NCBI GenBank assembly: GCA_026129865.1
Contig: JAHCHG010000013.1
Coordinates: 1 to 64,000, forward strand
Source: Pyrinomonadaceae bacterium
GTDB lineage: Bacteria > Acidobacteriota > Blastocatellia > Pyrinomonadales > Pyrinomonadaceae
Direction: 5' to 3'
DNA length: 64,000 nucleotides
Shown: positions 38,501-58,936 of the stretch, piece after piece
How positions within the stretch are numbered: the first letter of the stretch is position 1
Layout: every line of letters starts with the position of its first letter
Program-made: the position numbers and the translations under genes
The notes under the pieces: generated by a model
Database searches by the model: none
Seen by the model: the letters and a program-made list of their open reading frames with translations, nothing else
Told to the model about the DNA's origin: nothing

Positions 38501-40984
38501 ATGAAATACCGTTTTGTTCCGGAACGAATTGCCATTCCTTCGCTTAAACTGATCGCAGTTTTTGCGGTTGCGTTTTTATTTGTACAAACCTTGTCGGCGC
38601 AATCGCTGACGCGTAGAGATCCCGAGATCACAAAGGCGGCGAAGTTCGATATTTCACCACCGCTCAGAACGTTGAAGCCGAATCTTAGTCCAAAGGCAAA
38701 GAAAGCTGAAGACGATCAGGGAGAGCAGGGTCCGGTCGGCGATACGCGGCACGATCCGGATGGTGCGCTTCAATCTTCCACCGGAGAAGGTATCTTCAGC
38801 GGGATTTCAAGTTTTACCGGCTTAGGCGTAAGTTTTGACGGAATGGGCGGACTTGGTTCGACCCCGCCCGATCCGAACGGAGATATCGGACCGAATCATT
38901 ATGTTCAAATGGTAAACGCCCGGTTCCAGATATTTAACCGGTCCGGCGTTTCCGTCTTCGGTCCGGCTAACATCAATACGCTTTTTGCCGGATTTGGCGG
39001 ACCTTGCCAGACCGAAAACGCCGGCGATCCGGTCGTCATTTACGATCAACTCGCCGACCGCTGGCTGCTTAGCCAATTCAGCGATTCGTCCGGACCGTTT
39101 TTTAATTGCGTTGCGCTCTCAACGACCGGCGATCCGACAGGAACTTATTATCGTTATGCTTTTGAAGCACCGACATTTCCCGATTATCCGAAATACGCCG
39201 TCTGGTCCGATGGATATTATTTGAACACACGTGAGAGCGGCGGCGGCGTTTTGGGTATGTACGCGCTTGAACGCGTCGAAATGCTGGTGGGAAATCCAAA
39301 TGCCCGTGTAGTGCGATTCACGGTTGCGGAAACAGGAAGCGGCGGTCCGAACGGTCTTCTGAACGCAGACATCGACGGATCGGTAATGCCTCCGCCGGGC
39401 AGTCCTAATTATCTTATCGGAACGCGCGACGACGGATTCGGTGCGCCTTCGGACGCGCTGCTGCTGTATAAATATCAGGTCGATTGGACAAATGTCGGCA
39501 ATTCGACCCTAACCGGACCGACGGTTTTGCCGATCGCCCCGTTTGACAGTATTTTCCCGTGTACGCCGACATCGCGCGCCTGCATTCCGCAGCCGCAAAC
39601 GACAACGAAGATCGATATTCTTTCGTACCGGCGGCGACCGACTTTTCGTTTAACTTATCGAAATTTCGGAACGCATGAATCGCTTGTAACCAGTCAATCC
39701 GTCGAAGGAAGTGAGGGTATTGCCGGAATGCGCTGGTGGGAGGTCAGAAGTCCGAACACAACACCTGTCGTTCATCAGGAAGGAACATATGCTCCCGGAG
39801 CGACGGACAGCATTCATCGTTGGATGGGCAGCATCGCCATGGATAAACAGGGAAACATGGCGCTCGGTTACAGTGTTTCAAATGCGACCGACGTATTCCC
39901 GGGCATCCGCTTTACCGGACGTCTTGTCACCGATCCGCTCGGGCAAATGGCACAGGGCGAAGGTACGATCATCAACGGCGGAGGTTCGCAGTTGAGCAGC
40001 GGAAATCGCTGGGGAGATTACAGTTCAATTAATGTGGATTCGACCGACGATTGTACATTCTGGTACACGCAGCAATATTACGCGACGACTTCGACGACGG
40101 GATATAAAACCCGGGTCGCTTCGTTCAAGTTTCCGGGCTGCACCGCCGTGCAGCAGAGTGTCTGGGCAGATTTTGACGGCGACCGCAAAACGGATCTTTC
40201 CATCTTTCGACCCGGACCGTCGGAATGGTGGTATTTGAAGAGCAGCAACGGCGGGAACGCCTCCGCGCAGTTCGGCGCCTCCGGCGATCAATTAACACCC
40301 GGAGATTATACAGGCGACGGTAAATCCGATTTTGCGGTTTGGAGACCTTCGAACGGAACCTGGTACGTTCTTCGGAGCGAAGATTTTTCATTTTACTCGT
40401 TTCCATTCGGTGCAAATAGCGATATTCCGGTCCCGGCGGACTTTGACGGCGACGGCAAAACCGACGCCGCAGTTTACAGACCGTCAACCTCGACGTGGTT
40501 TATTACAAATTCCGGCGGCGGAACGACAATTCAAAACTACGGATCCACGGGCGACATTCCCGTTCCGGCAGACTATGACGGCGACGGACGAACCGATCTG
40601 GCGATCTATCGACCTTCTGTCGGTCAATGGTGGCTGCAGCGCACCGCGGCGGGTTTGATCGTTTACACGTTTGGGACAAGTACGGATAAATTAGTACCCG
40701 GCGATTACACCGGCGATGGGAAGCATGATGTCGCATTTTATCGACCGGCAAACGGCGAATGGTTCATTCTTCGCAGCGAAGATCAGAGTTTCTATTCGTT
40801 CCAGTTCGGTACCGGCAGCGATATTCCGGCTCCGGGCGATTACGATGGCGACGGAAAATTTGATTCTGCCGTTTTCCGTCCGTCGAACACGACCTGGTAT
40901 GTTAACCGATCGACATCGGGAATCCAGATCCAGCAGTTTGGAATTGCCAGCGATGTACCGGTTCCGGGTGCTTTTGTTCGGTAA
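38501..40984 (+). CDS. Large secreted protein with six FG-GAP/VCBS-like repeats
   Basis: An 827-residue exported protein with a signal peptide (about 1-33, ending LSAQ). A large N-terminal domain (about 110-545) begins GVSFDGMGGLGSTPPDPNGD and may be a beta-propeller. The last 270 residues hold six repeats of about 44 residues around D-x-D/T-GDG-x-x-D...RPS...W, the calcium-binding FG-GAP/VCBS type. Repeats 2 and 5 are more alike (RSED-x-SFYSF in both), pointing to duplication of a three-repeat unit. Probably a cell-surface or extracellular binding protein. Function unknown. Confidence 0.85.
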   Translation: MKYRFVPERIAIPSLKLIAVFAVAFLFVQTLSAQSLTRRDPEITKAAKFDISPPLRTLKPNLSPKAKKAEDDQGEQGPVGDTRHDPDGALQSSTGEGIFSGISSFTGLGVSFDGMGGLGSTPPDPNGDIGPNHYVQMVNARFQIFNRSGVSVFGPANINTLFAGFGGPCQTENAGDPVVIYDQLADRWLLSQFSDSSGPFFNCVALSTTGDPTGTYYRYAFEAPTFPDYPKYAVWSDGYYLNTRESGGGVLGMYALERVEMLVGNPNARVVRFTVAETGSGGPNGLLNADIDGSVMPPPGSPNYLIGTRDDGFGAPSDALLLYKYQVDWTNVGNSTLTGPTVLPIAPFDSIFPCTPTSRACIPQPQTTTKIDILSYRRRPTFRLTYRNFGTHESLVTSQSVEGSEGIAGMRWWEVRSPNTTPVVHQEGTYAPGATDSIHRWMGSIAMDKQGNMALGYSVSNATDVFPGIRFTGRLVTDPLGQMAQGEGTIINGGGSQLSSGNRWGDYSSINVDSTDDCTFWYTQQYYATTSTTGYKTRVASFKFPGCTAVQQSVWADFDGDRKTDLSIFRPGPSEWWYLKSSNGGNASAQFGASGDQLTPGDYTGDGKSDFAVWRPSNGTWYVLRSEDFSFYSFPFGANSDIPVPADFDGDGKTDAAVYRPSTSTWFITNSGGGTTIQNYGSTGDIPVPADYDGDGRTDLAIYRPSVGQWWLQRTAAGLIVYTFGTSTDKLVPGDYTGDGKHDVAFYRPANGEWFILRSEDQSFYSFQFGTGSDIPAPGDYDGDGKFDSAVFRPSNTTWYVNRSTSGIQIQQFGIASDVPVPGAFVR

Positions 40985-52957: not shown

Positions 52958-53274
52958 TGGAAGCCCCTGGTAAATAATGTTTTGCCGTGCACTTAAATCA
53001 GCGAACCCCTAGAAAATTTTCTTACTAGGGGCACCGCTTTTCAGATTACAACGAAAAATACAACGTGCCTTGAATATACTCCGAATAACCTCGAATTCCA
53101 ATTTTTTTAACAAATTTCTTTTTCAACCTTTTGGTGGTAAACTTGTTGCAATTAAAAGAATTTAGATCGCGGGTCCGGATATTGATTGCAACTGCAATCG
53201 ATTGAGTTACGTCGAATCACCGGATTATTTTGAGGATCGTATCCTCTTGTTTAAGATTTGGGATGGAGAAGAAT
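52958..53274. other. Intergenic region between DUF5658 and LysM genes (317 bases)
   Basis: Divergent promoters must lie here. It has a 7-bp hairpin cccctag (53006-53012) / ctagggg (53025-53031) and AT-rich sequence near 53095-53160. Nothing else is recognised. The GGAG ribosome site for the LysM gene is at about 53264. Confidence 0.5.
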
Positions 53275-54117
53275 ATGAGAAATATATTAAATATAAAAGT
53301 ATTAGCGGGTTTATTCGCAGTGATCTTTCTGGCAGGTTCAACTGAGAGCTTTGCACAGCGAAATCTCGGAACGGTTGAAAGCGGAACGATCATTCGTGTG
53401 CGAATGAATCAAACGCTTAGTTCAAAGGAAGCACGGGTTGGCGATACATTCACGACCAATGTTACCGAGCCGGTTTATTCAAACACCGGCGCGGTCGTTA
53501 TTCCGACCGGAAGTACCGTGGTCGGAAAAGTCAACGCGGTTACTAAAGCGAAAAAGGGCGGCGATCCCGGAACGATCGATGTCAATTTTACCGAGGTAAG
53601 ACTTCCTAACGGAACGAGCCGTGTGATCAATGGGTCATTGACTAATCTCGATTCAAAAGATGCCAAGAGCGATAATGAAGGAACCGCTTCGGGCGACGAC
53701 CGCAAGAACGATAAAATTATCTTTATCGGCGGCGGTGCCGGCGGCGGCGCTATCATCGGCGGCATCATCGGTGGCGGAAAAGGCGCTTTGATCGGCGGTA
53801 TCCTCGGTGCGCTCGGCGGTCTTGCCGGCGAACGTCTGACGAAAGGCGAAGAAGCAACTGTGAAGGCAGGAACGGAATTCGGCGTTATTCTGAACCGCTC
53901 GGTAACACTGCCGAGATTCGGAGCGATCGACGATGACATTCCGGCGGGCACTGGAAACGGAAGAACATACATCGTTCAACCCGGCGACACGCTCGGAAAG
54001 ATCAGTGTGCGTTTCTACGGAACATCGCGCCGTTATATGGATATCTATAACGCAAATCGGGATAAACTATCGAGCCCGAGCCGCGTTGACGTAGGACAGG
54101 AATTGCGTATTCCGTAA
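53275..54117 (+). CDS. Exported LysM-domain protein with glycine-zipper segment
   Basis: From the ATG at 53275, with GGAG six bases upstream, the protein has 280 residues. A signal peptide (about 1-28) ends ESFAQ. A beta-rich region has GTIIRVRMNQTLSSKEARVGDTF. A glycine zipper (GGGAGGGAIIGGIIGGGKG, about 160-195) resembles membrane-inserting OmpA-like or surface segments. The C-terminal LysM (YIVQPGDTLGKISVRFYG, then VDVGQELRIP) binds peptidoglycan. Likely an envelope protein. The frame is open upstream to 53230 but has no good start. Confidence 0.85.
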   Translation: MRNILNIKVLAGLFAVIFLAGSTESFAQRNLGTVESGTIIRVRMNQTLSSKEARVGDTFTTNVTEPVYSNTGAVVIPTGSTVVGKVNAVTKAKKGGDPGTIDVNFTEVRLPNGTSRVINGSLTNLDSKDAKSDNEGTASGDDRKNDKIIFIGGGAGGGAIIGGIIGGGKGALIGGILGALGGLAGERLTKGEEATVKAGTEFGVILNRSVTLPRFGAIDDDIPAGTGNGRTYIVQPGDTLGKISVRFYGTSRRYMDIYNANRDKLSSPSRVDVGQELRIP

Positions 54118-54202: not shown

Positions 54203-55042
54203 TTAGTTGATGTTTTCCAAATAAGCGACCACTTTTTTAATAAGCCATTCCGGCGTTGATGCTCCGGCTGTAACTCCGACGACGTTTACGCCTTCAAGAT
54301 CCGCGGGATCGATCTCGTCTTCGGTCTCGATCAAAAAGCTCTTTTCGCATTTTTCCTTGCACACGGCAACAAGTTTTCGGCTGTTCGACGAATGTCTGCC
54401 GCCGATGATGTAAAACGCATCGACCTCGCCGGCGAGCGCGCGGGCTGCGTCCTGCCGGTCGCGGGTTGCCGAACAGATCGTATTTACGACCTGAACTTCA
54501 TCGTCCGTCTTTGCTTTCACGGCTTCGGCAGCGTCGAGAAACGACTGCAGTTTTATCGTCGTTTGCGAAACTACAAGCGGTTTGTTCAATTTCGGCAAAT
54601 TTGCGACTTCTTCCGCGCTGTTGACGATAAAGGTATGTTCCGGCGCGTATCCGTAAACACCGATCATTTCAGGGTGATCCGGATTTCCGACAACGACGAC
54701 ATGCTGGTCCTTCGCGGCTGCGCGCGAAGCTAACCGCTGAACCTTCGTTACGAAGGGACAGGTCGCATCGACGACTTTCGACGCTTTTTCTTCCAATTCT
54801 TTTTGAACCTGCGGCGTCACGCCATGCGCACGAATAACAGCCGTTTCGCCGCGCGTGATCTGTACAGGTTCACTGATCGTGCTGACGCCTTTTGAACCGA
54901 GCCGGTCCATTTCCTGTTCGTTATGAATAAGCGGTCCGAGTGTTCGAACGGTTTCGCCAAGCGACAGCGATTCCTCAACCATATCGACGGCGCGCTCGAC
55001 GCCGAAACAAAACCCGTATTCATTTGCAAGTAAAACTTTCAT
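54203..55042 (-). CDS. ispH: 4-hydroxy-3-methylbut-2-enyl diphosphate reductase
   Basis: Last step of the MEP pathway: a [4Fe-4S] enzyme makes IPP and DMAPP from HMBPP. The 279 residues are a normal length. The three cluster cysteines are in YGFCFGVERA, VVDATCPFVTKVQ and VVNTICSATRDRQ. Other blocks are HNEQEMDRLGSKGV and IIGGRHSSNSRKLVAVC. It works with dxs near 3-5 kb; the other pathway genes are not in the window. Confidence 0.96.
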   Translation of the reverse strand: MKVLLANEYGFCFGVERAVDMVEESLSLGETVRTLGPLIHNEQEMDRLGSKGVSTISEPVQITRGETAVIRAHGVTPQVQKELEEKASKVVDATCPFVTKVQRLASRAAAKDQHVVVVGNPDHPEMIGVYGYAPEHTFIVNSAEEVANLPKLNKPLVVSQTTIKLQSFLDAAEAVKAKTDDEVQVVNTICSATRDRQDAARALAGEVDAFYIIGGRHSSNSRKLVAVCKEKCEKSFLIETEDEIDPADLEGVNVVGVTAGASTPEWLIKKVVAYLENIN

Positions 55043-55162: not shown

Positions 55163-57025
55163 TTAACGAATCGGCTCGCGAAGCATTATTTCTGACGCCA
55201 AACGAGCCTTCCGTGCGGATTCCGGATGACTTTTTTTAAGATTGGCGATCTGTAGAAGCGCTTCGCCGGTGCGCGAAAGCAATCGAACGAGGTCGCCTTC
55301 GGCAGCGCGGGTTTCATGAACAAGGTCGTCCCAACCGGTGCCGTCCGCCCAGCTTTCCGCCGCCGCAGCTGCAGAAAAATTCATTTGCGGCGAAGGTTCG
55401 ACACCGAATTTCCATTCGATGTTTGAAACCTGGAATACCGTATTTTCAAACTCGGTCAAAACGTCAAGAATCGTTTCGGAAAGATAAAGTTCCCCGTATT
55501 CGCGGTCCTCGTCCGCCGCGAGAGCAGCCATCAGTCCTGCGATCTGTGTCGGTTCAAGCTTTTCAAACAAACCGTTCTTGAGCGCCTCGCCGACGAGCAG
55601 CGGGCGGTCGACGCGAACATCGGCAAGCCATTTTCCGCTATTCGAAACCTTTTCTTCGCTTAAACTTAAATAACCGAAATGATCCAGCACCTTTGCGCGA
55701 TGTTCGAAAGGAAGCCAGATCTCATTTCGTAAGATCTCGATGTCGCGCTCCGAGCGGCGCAGAAACGAAGCGTCATTTAACGATTCCCAAAGAAATGCGG
55801 AAATATCATCCCGATCCGATCTTTTATTTGTTTCGTAAAACTTCTTCGCAGTGGATTCAAATAGACCGATCGTTTCGTCCAAAACATCTGCTTTTGCTGT
55901 AAGTTTCGGCTCGGCAAGCGGAGGATTTCGACCTTCTTCGATATCAAAAAATGCCGTCTCGAGCGCTTTTTCACTGATCGGGTAAGAATTCTCAAAAATG
56001 CGATTGACGCTGTGCAGCGAAAGCGTGGAGCCTTTTCCGTCGTCGCGCATGGTAACTACTTTGTCTCCGTAAATGCTGATAACAAGATAGTAGCGGCGAC
56101 CGCTACGTCCCTTTGTAACCATCCGACCGACCTTTACGTTTTCGCGCAGCCACTCCGAACGAAGTTCGGCGCGCGTTGTCGGGATCTTCTCTTCGAGACG
56201 CGTTTTTGCAGCGGTCAGCCGTTCAAAACCGCGCAAGTCATCAGGCGTTAGATCAAAACCGTTCTTCTTGATGCGGGCGGTCAACTGGTCTTCGCGATTC
56301 TTAATTTTCTCATTGATCCTTGCGATCTTTCGTCCCGTGTCGCGAAACGCGAAACTTTTTTCGACGATCTGCCGAAGCTGATCGAAATTTCCAAACGCGT
56401 CCAAAAGATTTAATAGACTTGAATAAGTCGCACGAAACTGGCTTTGAAGATCGTCAGGCGGCGACGAAAGAAGCTTTGCGATTCGCGGCGGATTTTGAAA
56501 ATTGCTCGGCGCCAGCACAACAAACCCGACGTTGTCCTTTCCGCGACGACCCGCGCGCCCGGTCATTTGCTGCAGTTCGCTCGCCTGCAGCGGGCGCCAT
56601 CCGTCATTGCCGCGTGTGTCGGCGTTTGAAATGACGACCGTTCGTGCGGGAAAATCGACTCCGGCGGCAACGGTGGAGGTTGCAAAGATCGCATTAAGAA
56701 GTCCCGCGGACATTAATTTTTCGACGAGCAGTTTCCAGGCAGGAATATGCCCGGCATGGTGCGATGCGATTCCGGAATTGAGCAGGATCTTTCTATGTTT
56801 ATGTTTTGCGATCTCGGGATTTTCTTTAAGAAATTCGTCAAAGATCTGCTGACGCGCGATCTGTTTGCCGTGATCGATCAGCTGCGACCGGTCAAGTGCG
56901 ACTTCGGACGCTGCTTCATCGCATCGCCGGCGCGACGGAACGAAGATAATAGCCGGCAGCAGATCGTACGATCTGAGTGTTTTGATCAGCCGCGGCGGCG
57001 GAATTTCGGGCAGACGATATCGCAT
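55163..57025 (-). CDS. Ski2-like (HelY/Mtr4-type) helicase lacking the first RecA domain
   Basis: A 620-residue protein that starts directly at the second RecA domain: SYDLLPAIIFVPSRRRCDEAA, motif V ATSTVAAGVDFPA (about 115-127) and motif VI QMTGRAGRRG (about 153-162), then the winged-helix/ratchet and C-terminal helical regions of Ski2-like helicases. There is no Walker A or DExH box, and only 105 non-coding bases separate it from the ABC gene upstream, so the first domain is truly absent. It cannot hydrolyse ATP alone. It may be an adaptor or act with another subunit. Confidence 0.85.
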   Translation of the reverse strand: MRYRLPEIPPPRLIKTLRSYDLLPAIIFVPSRRRCDEAASEVALDRSQLIDHGKQIARQQIFDEFLKENPEIAKHKHRKILLNSGIASHHAGHIPAWKLLVEKLMSAGLLNAIFATSTVAAGVDFPARTVVISNADTRGNDGWRPLQASELQQMTGRAGRRGKDNVGFVVLAPSNFQNPPRIAKLLSSPPDDLQSQFRATYSSLLNLLDAFGNFDQLRQIVEKSFAFRDTGRKIARINEKIKNREDQLTARIKKNGFDLTPDDLRGFERLTAAKTRLEEKIPTTRAELRSEWLRENVKVGRMVTKGRSGRRYYLVISIYGDKVVTMRDDGKGSTLSLHSVNRIFENSYPISEKALETAFFDIEEGRNPPLAEPKLTAKADVLDETIGLFESTAKKFYETNKRSDRDDISAFLWESLNDASFLRRSERDIEILRNEIWLPFEHRAKVLDHFGYLSLSEEKVSNSGKWLADVRVDRPLLVGEALKNGLFEKLEPTQIAGLMAALAADEDREYGELYLSETILDVLTEFENTVFQVSNIEWKFGVEPSPQMNFSAAAAAESWADGTGWDDLVHETRAAEGDLVRLLSRTGEALLQIANLKKSHPESARKARLASEIMLREPIR

Positions 57026-57130: not shown

Positions 57131-58936
57131 CTAATCGGTCGCTTCGATCTCTTCTTCCAAAAGCTGTCTTTGGTAGAGCGCCGCATATTCGCCATTGAGT
57201 TTTAGCAGCTCGTCATGCGTTCCGCGCTCGATAATTTCGCCTTCGTCGAGAACGCAGATCAGATCGGCGTCGCGCACGGTCGAAACGCGATGCGAAATGA
57301 TGATCGCTGTCTTATTTTGGCGAATGTCGCGCAAACCTTTGAGAATAGTTTCCTCGGTATATGTGTCGACCGCCGAAAGTGAATCGTCGAGTATTAAAAT
57401 CCGCGGATTTCTCATCACCGCACGGGCAATCGCCGTCCGCTGTTTTTGACCGCCGGAAAGCGAAATTCCGCGTTCGCCGACAAGCTGCCGGTATTTAAAA
57501 GGAAATTCCGCGATGTCGCCCGCAAGCCCCGCGACTTCTGCGGCTTTTTCAACAGAAATACTGCGTCTGCCGTTTCCGGATCGGTCGAAATCCTCTGTGT
57601 TTTTTAACTTTGAACCTTGGATCTTTAACTGTTCTTCCACGCCAAACGAAATGTTGTCCTCGATCGATGAACTGAACAGAAATGTTTCCTGCGGAACGAC
57701 GCCGATCGCTTCGCGAAGCTGTTTGAGAGGAAATTTACGAACCGGAATATCGTCGATCAGCACGGTGCCGTCCGGCGCGTCGAGCAGACGCGGGATCAAG
57801 CTGATCAAAGTCGATTTTCCGCTGCCGGTTTTTCCGACAAGTGCGATCGTTTGACCTTCTTCGATCGTCAAATTGATGTCTTTCAGAACCGGTTCGCCGT
57901 CGCCGTACGCAAACGTTAGATCCCGAAATTCGATCTTTCCCTTGATCTTCGGCTGCGGCGCGACGTCTTCTGAATCGTTGATCGCCGGAACGGTTTCTAA
58001 AATGGCGTTAAACCTTTTCAGGCTCGCCGTGCCGCGCTGGTAAAGATTTACGACGTATCCGAGCGCAATTAAATACCAGATCATTCTCTGCAGATAAAGG
58101 ATGAAAGCGGAAAAATCGCCCGCCGTTATGTCGCCGCGGGCAGCCATCGGAACGCCGACCGCAACAATGATCACAAAACTTAGCCCGATAAAGAAATAGA
58201 GCAGCGGTCGCATTGCCGCGCCGAATTTAACGAGCGAAATGTTTCGCTTTGCATATTCGCGGTTCAATTCCTGAAATTTTTCGATCTCGGCGTCTTCCTG
58301 CGCATAGGCGCGCACAACGCGGACTCCCGAAAGATTTTCCTGCGCGCGCGCGGTAATATGCGAGAAAAATTCCTGGATCTTTTCAAATCTGACGTGAATT
58401 TGCTGACCTAAAAATTTGACAGTCAAAGAAACGAACGGAAGCGGAATTAGCAGAAACAAAGTCAGTTTTACGCTGATGCCGAACATGATCGGCAAAACGA
58501 TCGCCAGCGCGAAAACCGCCTGAAAACTGTAAAGGATCATCGGTCCGACGATCTGCCGGACCGCGGAGAGGTCGTTCGTCGCGCGCGCCATCAGATCGCC
58601 GACGCGGTTGTTATGAAAAAATTCGAGCGGCTGATCGACAAGCGCGGCGTAAAAATCGCGGCGCATGTCATATTCAATATGTCTAGAAGTATTGATAAGC
58701 AGCCGGCGCTGCCAGAAGAGAAAAAATCCCGCACAGAGACTTACGCCGAGAATCACAAGCGGATAAAAGATGATCTTTTCCTGCGTCAGTTCGGTGCTCA
58801 GATCGTCGATCGCGCGTCCGACGAGAAACGGGACGAGTAAACTGAACGACATCGAACAAAGAATAAAGAAAATTCCCGCCGCGATCGATTTTCGGTACGG
58901 ATTGAAATATTTCGCAAATTTTCTCAGCTCTTCCAT
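57131..58936 (-). CDS. ABC exporter, fused permease-ATPase (MsbA/McjD type)
   Basis: A 601-residue half-transporter that works as a homodimer or heterodimer. Six membrane helices fill about 1-320. The ATPase has Walker [10 protein letters not shown], signature LSGGQKQR, Walker [13 protein letters not shown] and switch histidine ISHRVST. An insertion of about 30 residues, [20 protein letters not shown], precedes the signature. Such exporters move lipids, peptides or drugs; cargo cannot be told. It starts 4 bases after the thioesterase stop, so they are cotranscribed. Confidence 0.93.

Follow-up and report, generated by a model that had tools for sequence, protein, structure and literature searches.

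A 64,000-nucleotide stretch of a draft Pyrinomonadaceae bacterium genome (positions 1 to 64,000 of contig JAHCHG010000013.1, assembly GCA_026129865.1; hereafter the window) carries at 55163-57025, on the reverse strand, a gene for a protein that resembles a Ski2-like helicase lacking its first RecA domain. Helicases of superfamilies 1 and 2 (SF1 and SF2) hold their ATP site in the cleft between two RecA lobes, which are normally part of one chain. We found the first lobe (RecA1) encoded by a separate gene on another contig of the same genome. The window gene is very probably the second half (RecA2) of a two-subunit Ski2-like RNA helicase of the HelY/Mtr4 type, with the ATPase site formed in trans. 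The two halves are intact and single-copy, they are orthologous to parts of a one-piece protein in relatives, and they are co-inherited.

The 620-residue open reading frame of the window protein opens with ATG and measures 621 aa from stop to stop. The DNA directly before and at the start reads TAA-AAA-ATG, with the in-frame stop two codons ahead of the ATG; since the open region reaches just one codon upstream, an N-terminal extension in this frame is impossible. As the initial annotation had noted, only 105 bases separate the RecA2 gene from the next gene, an ABC transporter gene at 57131. Pfam recognises Helicase_C at residues 102-162 and DSHCT at residues 458-619 (E 2.7e-28) and finds no DEAD or ResIII domain in the protein, and phmmer matches it, from residue 12 on, to Mtr4 and Ski2 from RecA2 to the C-terminal end (E 5e-37). 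Motifs V and VI are present in the protein; Walker A, DExH and SAT are all absent. Pfam, phmmer and the absence of motifs agree with the initial description of a helicase polypeptide without its first RecA domain. Because the frame is conserved without stops in dozens of genomes at 48-66% identity, the protein is neither a chance open reading frame nor a decaying one, and the earlier view of it as stable stands. The start had been placed at the second RecA domain, which is broadly right; the chain probably begins slightly inside RecA2, past its first hairpin, rather than at the exact edge of the lobe.

With the N-terminal RecA1 domain of a fused relative (G020) as the query, a search of the window's own genome, a draft in 21 contigs, recovered one strong match, at 95313-96023(-) of contig C4 (E 6e-113, 72% identity to the RecA1 part of G020). 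It belongs to a separate, intact gene of 294 aa encoding the Walker A (APTGSGKT), DExH (LDEVH) and SAT (LLSATIGN) motifs, and Pfam assigns its product to DEAD (E 2e-21). At E <= 0.001 this genome yielded a single copy of each half. The RecA lobes thus lie on two genes on different contigs and not on a single polypeptide; between them the two genes carry these features of the Ski2-like group (HelY/Mtr4/Ski2): RecA1 with its three motifs in one gene, and RecA2 with motifs V and VI (GRAGRRG), the ratchet and DSHCT in the other. The initial annotation had called the first domain missing and had proposed looking for a separately encoded copy: the domain is indeed missing from the polypeptide, but not from the organism. 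Nor is it hidden in another frame just upstream of the RecA2 gene, where the neighbouring gene is the ABC transporter.

Every split RecA1 chain examined ends in an Arg-rich tail. The last 12 residues of split RecA1 chains hold on average 5.6 Arg or Lys; the corresponding stretch of linker in fused proteins holds 2.8, a value that depends on the chosen cut. RecA1 proteins of family f3 (L065 5120-6328(+), also G038 and G042) have an extra N-terminus of ~100-150 aa that is not found in the window's family, and the one-piece homologue G069 likewise has a long N-terminal part.

The RecA1 profile aligns to residues 144-350 of Mtr4 (6fsz chain), and also to Ski2 (E 6e-56). In a structural model of the window protein (mean predicted local distance difference test score, pLDDT, 84; predicted template modelling score, pTM, 0.53), residues 1-620 align to Mtr4 355-1067 with Z 29.3 and a root-mean-square deviation of 16.6 Å over 586 residues; Foldseek matches the model to Mtr4 at E about 1e-25. 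The large deviation suggests domain movement, or domains misplaced in the model. For a human Mtr4 chain, the comparison gave 3.0 Å over 402 residues (Z 22.6). RecA1 corresponds to about 144-350 and the RecA2 half to about 355-1067 of Mtr4, and therefore the two proteins tile a one-chain helicase. The RecA1 chain also contains the sequence RPVELRAGFL...LYPLL, which we take to be the linker and first RecA2 hairpin of the Ski2-like fold. In a model of a fused protein most of RecA1 has pLDDT <50, the hairpin (241-253) about 75, and the linker at the site of the split (274-286) <50; we used this model solely as a hint that the hairpin packs with RecA2.

The whole-chain model of the window protein predicts helical arms and, by DSSP, strands at residues 301-347, a candidate for the arch-like insert with a KOW-like beta domain of the Mtr4/Ski2 subgroup; the insert is absent from one group of relatives. 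In this group, which is related to genus g9, the RecA2 halves measure 423-449 aa (G032 at L066, G189 at L091, G274 at L096, and L197, L198 and L199), and the middle insert (about residues 230-430) is lost while RecA2 and DSHCT are kept. A separate RecA1 gene is present in G032, G189 and G274, the short-RecA2 genomes that were searched, and a 511-aa open frame in G220 resembles the same group.

Sixty related genomes were then surveyed with each half. Both halves occur in 39 of them, RecA2 alone in one (G031), and neither in 20 (Fisher p 5e-15, the species not being independent); RecA1 was thus found at strong E-values in 39/40 RecA2-bearing genomes and in 0/20 of the rest. In G023 RecA1 is present, divided over two contigs. 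All 11 genomes of genus g9 have both halves, at separate loci. In three genomes consisting of two contigs each (G046, G050 and G054, presumably Chloracidobacterium; 2.66 and 1.00 Mb in G046), RecA1 is found on the larger replicon and RecA2 on the smaller.

The 30 best matches of the window protein among the relatives span nearly the whole query, and their open frames are either ~613-660 aa or 848-1014 aa long. The longer frames belong to the same family and are fused, with an N-terminal RecA1 bearing Walker A and DExH. The initial annotation had named full-length versions in all close relatives as a possible refutation; instead, every one of the nearest relatives (59-65% identity) has the split form, and the fused form is found in a sister clade and one other genome. 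A scan of named records found the split form in metagenome-assembled genomes of Pyrinomonadaceae and Aridibacter and the fused form in Pyrinomonas methylaliphatogenes K22. One 3.5-kb contig binned as Parvibaculum (L145, JAHBYL010000121.1) bears a RecA2 half of the Blastocatellia type and is probably misbinned. A plasmid search gave no match reaching 80% query coverage.

These distributions bear on the idea that the window protein acts alone, as an ATP-independent RNA-binding or scaffold protein of helicase descent, which a well-conserved chain without an ATP-binding lobe could be taken to indicate and which the initial annotation had in mind when it proposed checking for RNA binding without ATPase activity. 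We consider it improbable. Its own genome and nearly all others with RecA2 keep the lobe it lacks intact, so an ATPase-free binder is not needed, and the arginines of motif VI are invariant and would be of use only opposite an ATP site.

In genomes with fused or adjacent halves, the gene order is SecA - (often up1) - RecA1 - RecA2 - IspH, often followed by LysM; the identity of SecA was confirmed by Pfam. The up1 gene between SecA and RecA1 (L062 9325-10713(+)) keeps its place in much of the family and has no Pfam match. In the dispersed genomes of the window's family, RecA1 stands beside SecA/up1 and RecA2 beside IspH and LysM (Table 1). Intermediates exist with gaps of 37, 111, 145, 716, 726, 2059 and 2335 bp between RecA1 and RecA2, and in L072 a 5-kb gene with SBBP repeats lies between them. 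In the window's genome a homologue of this SBBP gene, recognised by Pfam, follows RecA1, and RecA2-IspH-LysM are located on another contig, the one containing the window. The locus of the window's lineage has been cut between the halves, and their separation can be traced stepwise through synteny. Two large proteins, at 38501-40984(+) of the window and at L062 2783-8131(-), end in similar repeats (DFDGDGKTD...WRPSTG); those of the L062 protein are FG-GAP-like by Pfam, and a homologue of this L062 gene lies between the halves in L072.

Table 1. Features of the window that belong to the split helicase or its neighbourhood
Feature	Position	Strand	Evidence
RecA2 half of the split helicase (RecA2 lobe, helical/beta insert, ratchet, DSHCT; 620 aa)	55163..57025	-	Open reading frame, Pfam, PDB match, model and fold search
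Motif V, FATSTVAAGVDFPAR, residues 114-128	56642..56686	-	Nearly invariant in alignment A1
Motif VI, QMTGRAGRRG, residues 153-162, arginine fingers of the ATP site	56540..56569	-	Nearly invariant in alignment A1
Predicted beta domain, residues 301-347, inside the helical insert; KOW-like by position	55985..56125	-	DSSP of the model
DSHCT C-terminal domain, residues 458-619	55169..55654	-	Pfam PF08148
IspH (LytB) gene, conserved neighbour remaining with the RecA2 half	54203..55042	-	Pfam (LYTB); synteny
LysM-domain gene, second conserved neighbour of RecA2	53230..54117	+	Pfam; synteny
ABC transporter gene in the place of RecA1 of unbroken loci; outside the helicase, marks the break	57131..58936	-	Pfam; not beside RecA2 in relatives

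The adjacent pairs cover all three frame relations and use all three stop codons, and RecA2 has possible starts of its own; these observations rule out a programmed frameshift in such pairs. In some of them the stop of RecA1 overlaps the start of RecA2 as TTGA or ATGA. Overlap of a stop with a start is the usual sign of translational coupling, and these overlaps suggest it here, TTG being a less common start. In L156, L170 and L185 the overlap is apparently TTGA, with a TTG that starts RecA2 sharing bases with the TGA that ends RecA1.

The adjacency also speaks to a second alternative, in which RecA1 and RecA2 are separately useful, serving different proteins with only ancestry in common. The loci are distant in the window's lineage, which would suit this reading. 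It nevertheless has little probability, about as little as action of the window protein alone: the halves co-occur almost perfectly, many relatives have them adjacent with overlapping stop and start codons while others have them fused, and the genome contains no other RecA2-half homologue for RecA1 to serve. A joining of the halves after their synthesis, by a split intein or RNA trans-splicing, would restore a normal one-chain helicase, and is highly improbable. The conserved sequence of RecA2 begins right after its own ATG, and the RecA1 tail is short and Arg-rich; neither of these junction ends contains intein sequence, and Pfam found no intein domain in either half (no search for introns was made).

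Purifying selection acts on both halves. The ratio of nonsynonymous to synonymous substitution rates (dN/dS) is roughly 0.03-0.2 for each in unsaturated genome pairs, dispersed pairs included. Strong purifying selection is at odds with a recent pseudogene, and together with the conservation of the frame it rules out a degenerate fragment. An assembly error in a gene that is really whole, which a draft assembly might lead one to suspect, has hardly any chance of being correct, since dozens of independently made assemblies show the same separation with intact frames, and there are intermediates and stable neighbours as well; the frameshift or misassembly with a first domain nearby, named by the initial annotation as a possible refutation, is thereby excluded.

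The trees of RecA1 and RecA2 recover the same main clades, and the distances of the two halves correlate across 18 dispersed f1 genomes (r 0.77; 0/2000 permutations as high). Fused versus split requires two changes on the tree. Because f3 and f8, the nearest outgroup families, have the split form, the shortest account is an early split followed by two re-fusions, which suggests a split before two fusions within the class; several independent splits are a possible alternative. Roots taken from distant one-piece homologues in other classes (G069 and G163) gave very long branches, and because these roots are too far, the order of fission and fusion is suggested rather than fixed.

In the two-gene helicase that we propose, the RecA1 chain would supply motifs I, Ia, Ib, II and III with a short segment after SAT, and the two proteins would associate as a heterodimer. 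The ATP site would lie at their interface, with the RecA1 chain contributing Walker A and DExH and the RecA2 chain contributing motifs V and VI, arginine fingers included. The cut would fall a little way into the second lobe, so that the first beta-hairpin of RecA2 would come from the RecA1 chain, which would thus hold the lobes together. The ratchet, insert and DSHCT of the RecA2 chain would guide RNA, along which the assembled enzyme may travel 3' to 5', as HelY and Mtr4 do, and the Arg-rich tail of RecA1 may add binding to RNA or to a partner. Our best guess at its role, by analogy with HelY, is RNA or ribosome maintenance.

Several points weigh against this proposal. We infer the association of the subunits and the ATPase and helicase activity from genes and sequences. 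The donation of the hairpin is deduced from sequence alignment and the general domain boundaries of the Ski2-like fold, and the model of the fused protein is poor in RecA1. Shared species history alone could yield correlated distances between the halves. Finally, G031 has RecA2 without RecA1; this genome is 89% complete and also lacks the gene neighbouring RecA1, and the absence is probably due to incompleteness.

One of the closest known systems, likened here by its description, is the actinobacterial Ski2-like RNA helicase HelY, in which a DSHCT domain comes after the two RecA lobes on one polypeptide rather than in two genes. HelY associates with ribosomes in Streptomyces coelicolor, where cells that have lost it show a twofold higher sensitivity to tetracycline (PMC7157823). 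The eukaryotic exosome helicases Mtr4 and Ski2 match in sequence and predicted fold over RecA2, the insert, the ratchet and DSHCT; they are single chains, whereas the cut seen here falls near residue 350 of Mtr4. The fused orthologue of Pyrinomonas methylaliphatogenes (L181, 904 aa) lies in the same SecA/IspH neighbourhood with ~68% (RecA1) and ~50% (RecA2) identity, and unlike the window's pair it is one gene with the linker intact.

Nanoarchaeota have a split Lhr (NEQ003/NEQ409, Nst172/239), likewise a large SF2 helicase made from two genes, and a split reverse gyrase (PMC3655853). Those are very small symbiont genomes with many split genes, in which the Lhr site differs between two species (PMC3655853); here one site is conserved across a class of bacteria with larger genomes, and the Lhr cut may or may not lie between the RecA lobes. 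DrmA/DrmB of DISARM, of the YprA family, is also a helicase consistently divided over two genes, with the C-terminal OB/DUF1998 part split off and the RecA lobes kept together (PMC12458937), while here the lobes themselves are parted. A literature search that did not reach most subscription journals found no report of a bacterial helicase split at the RecA lobe boundary.

The chain has been cut near the lobe boundary and the pieces kept through the divergence of a bacterial class, in several lineages at distant loci or on separate replicons. Uncut relatives and split pairs together form a natural experiment on whether a translocating motor needs the covalent link between its lobes, and they are a source of two-part helicases for biochemistry. 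For annotation there is a warning, as either half gene looks truncated or ATPase-dead to anyone who does not search for the other. More speculatively, and with a rather low probability, the helicase may be a reversible two-subunit motor in which RecA1, tethered by the donated hairpin and the Arg-rich tail, comes on and off, its association switching the enzyme. To our knowledge, control by subunit association is not known for SF1/SF2 helicases. If such a motor exists, this control would have persisted throughout a bacterial class, also where the halves lie on different replicons.
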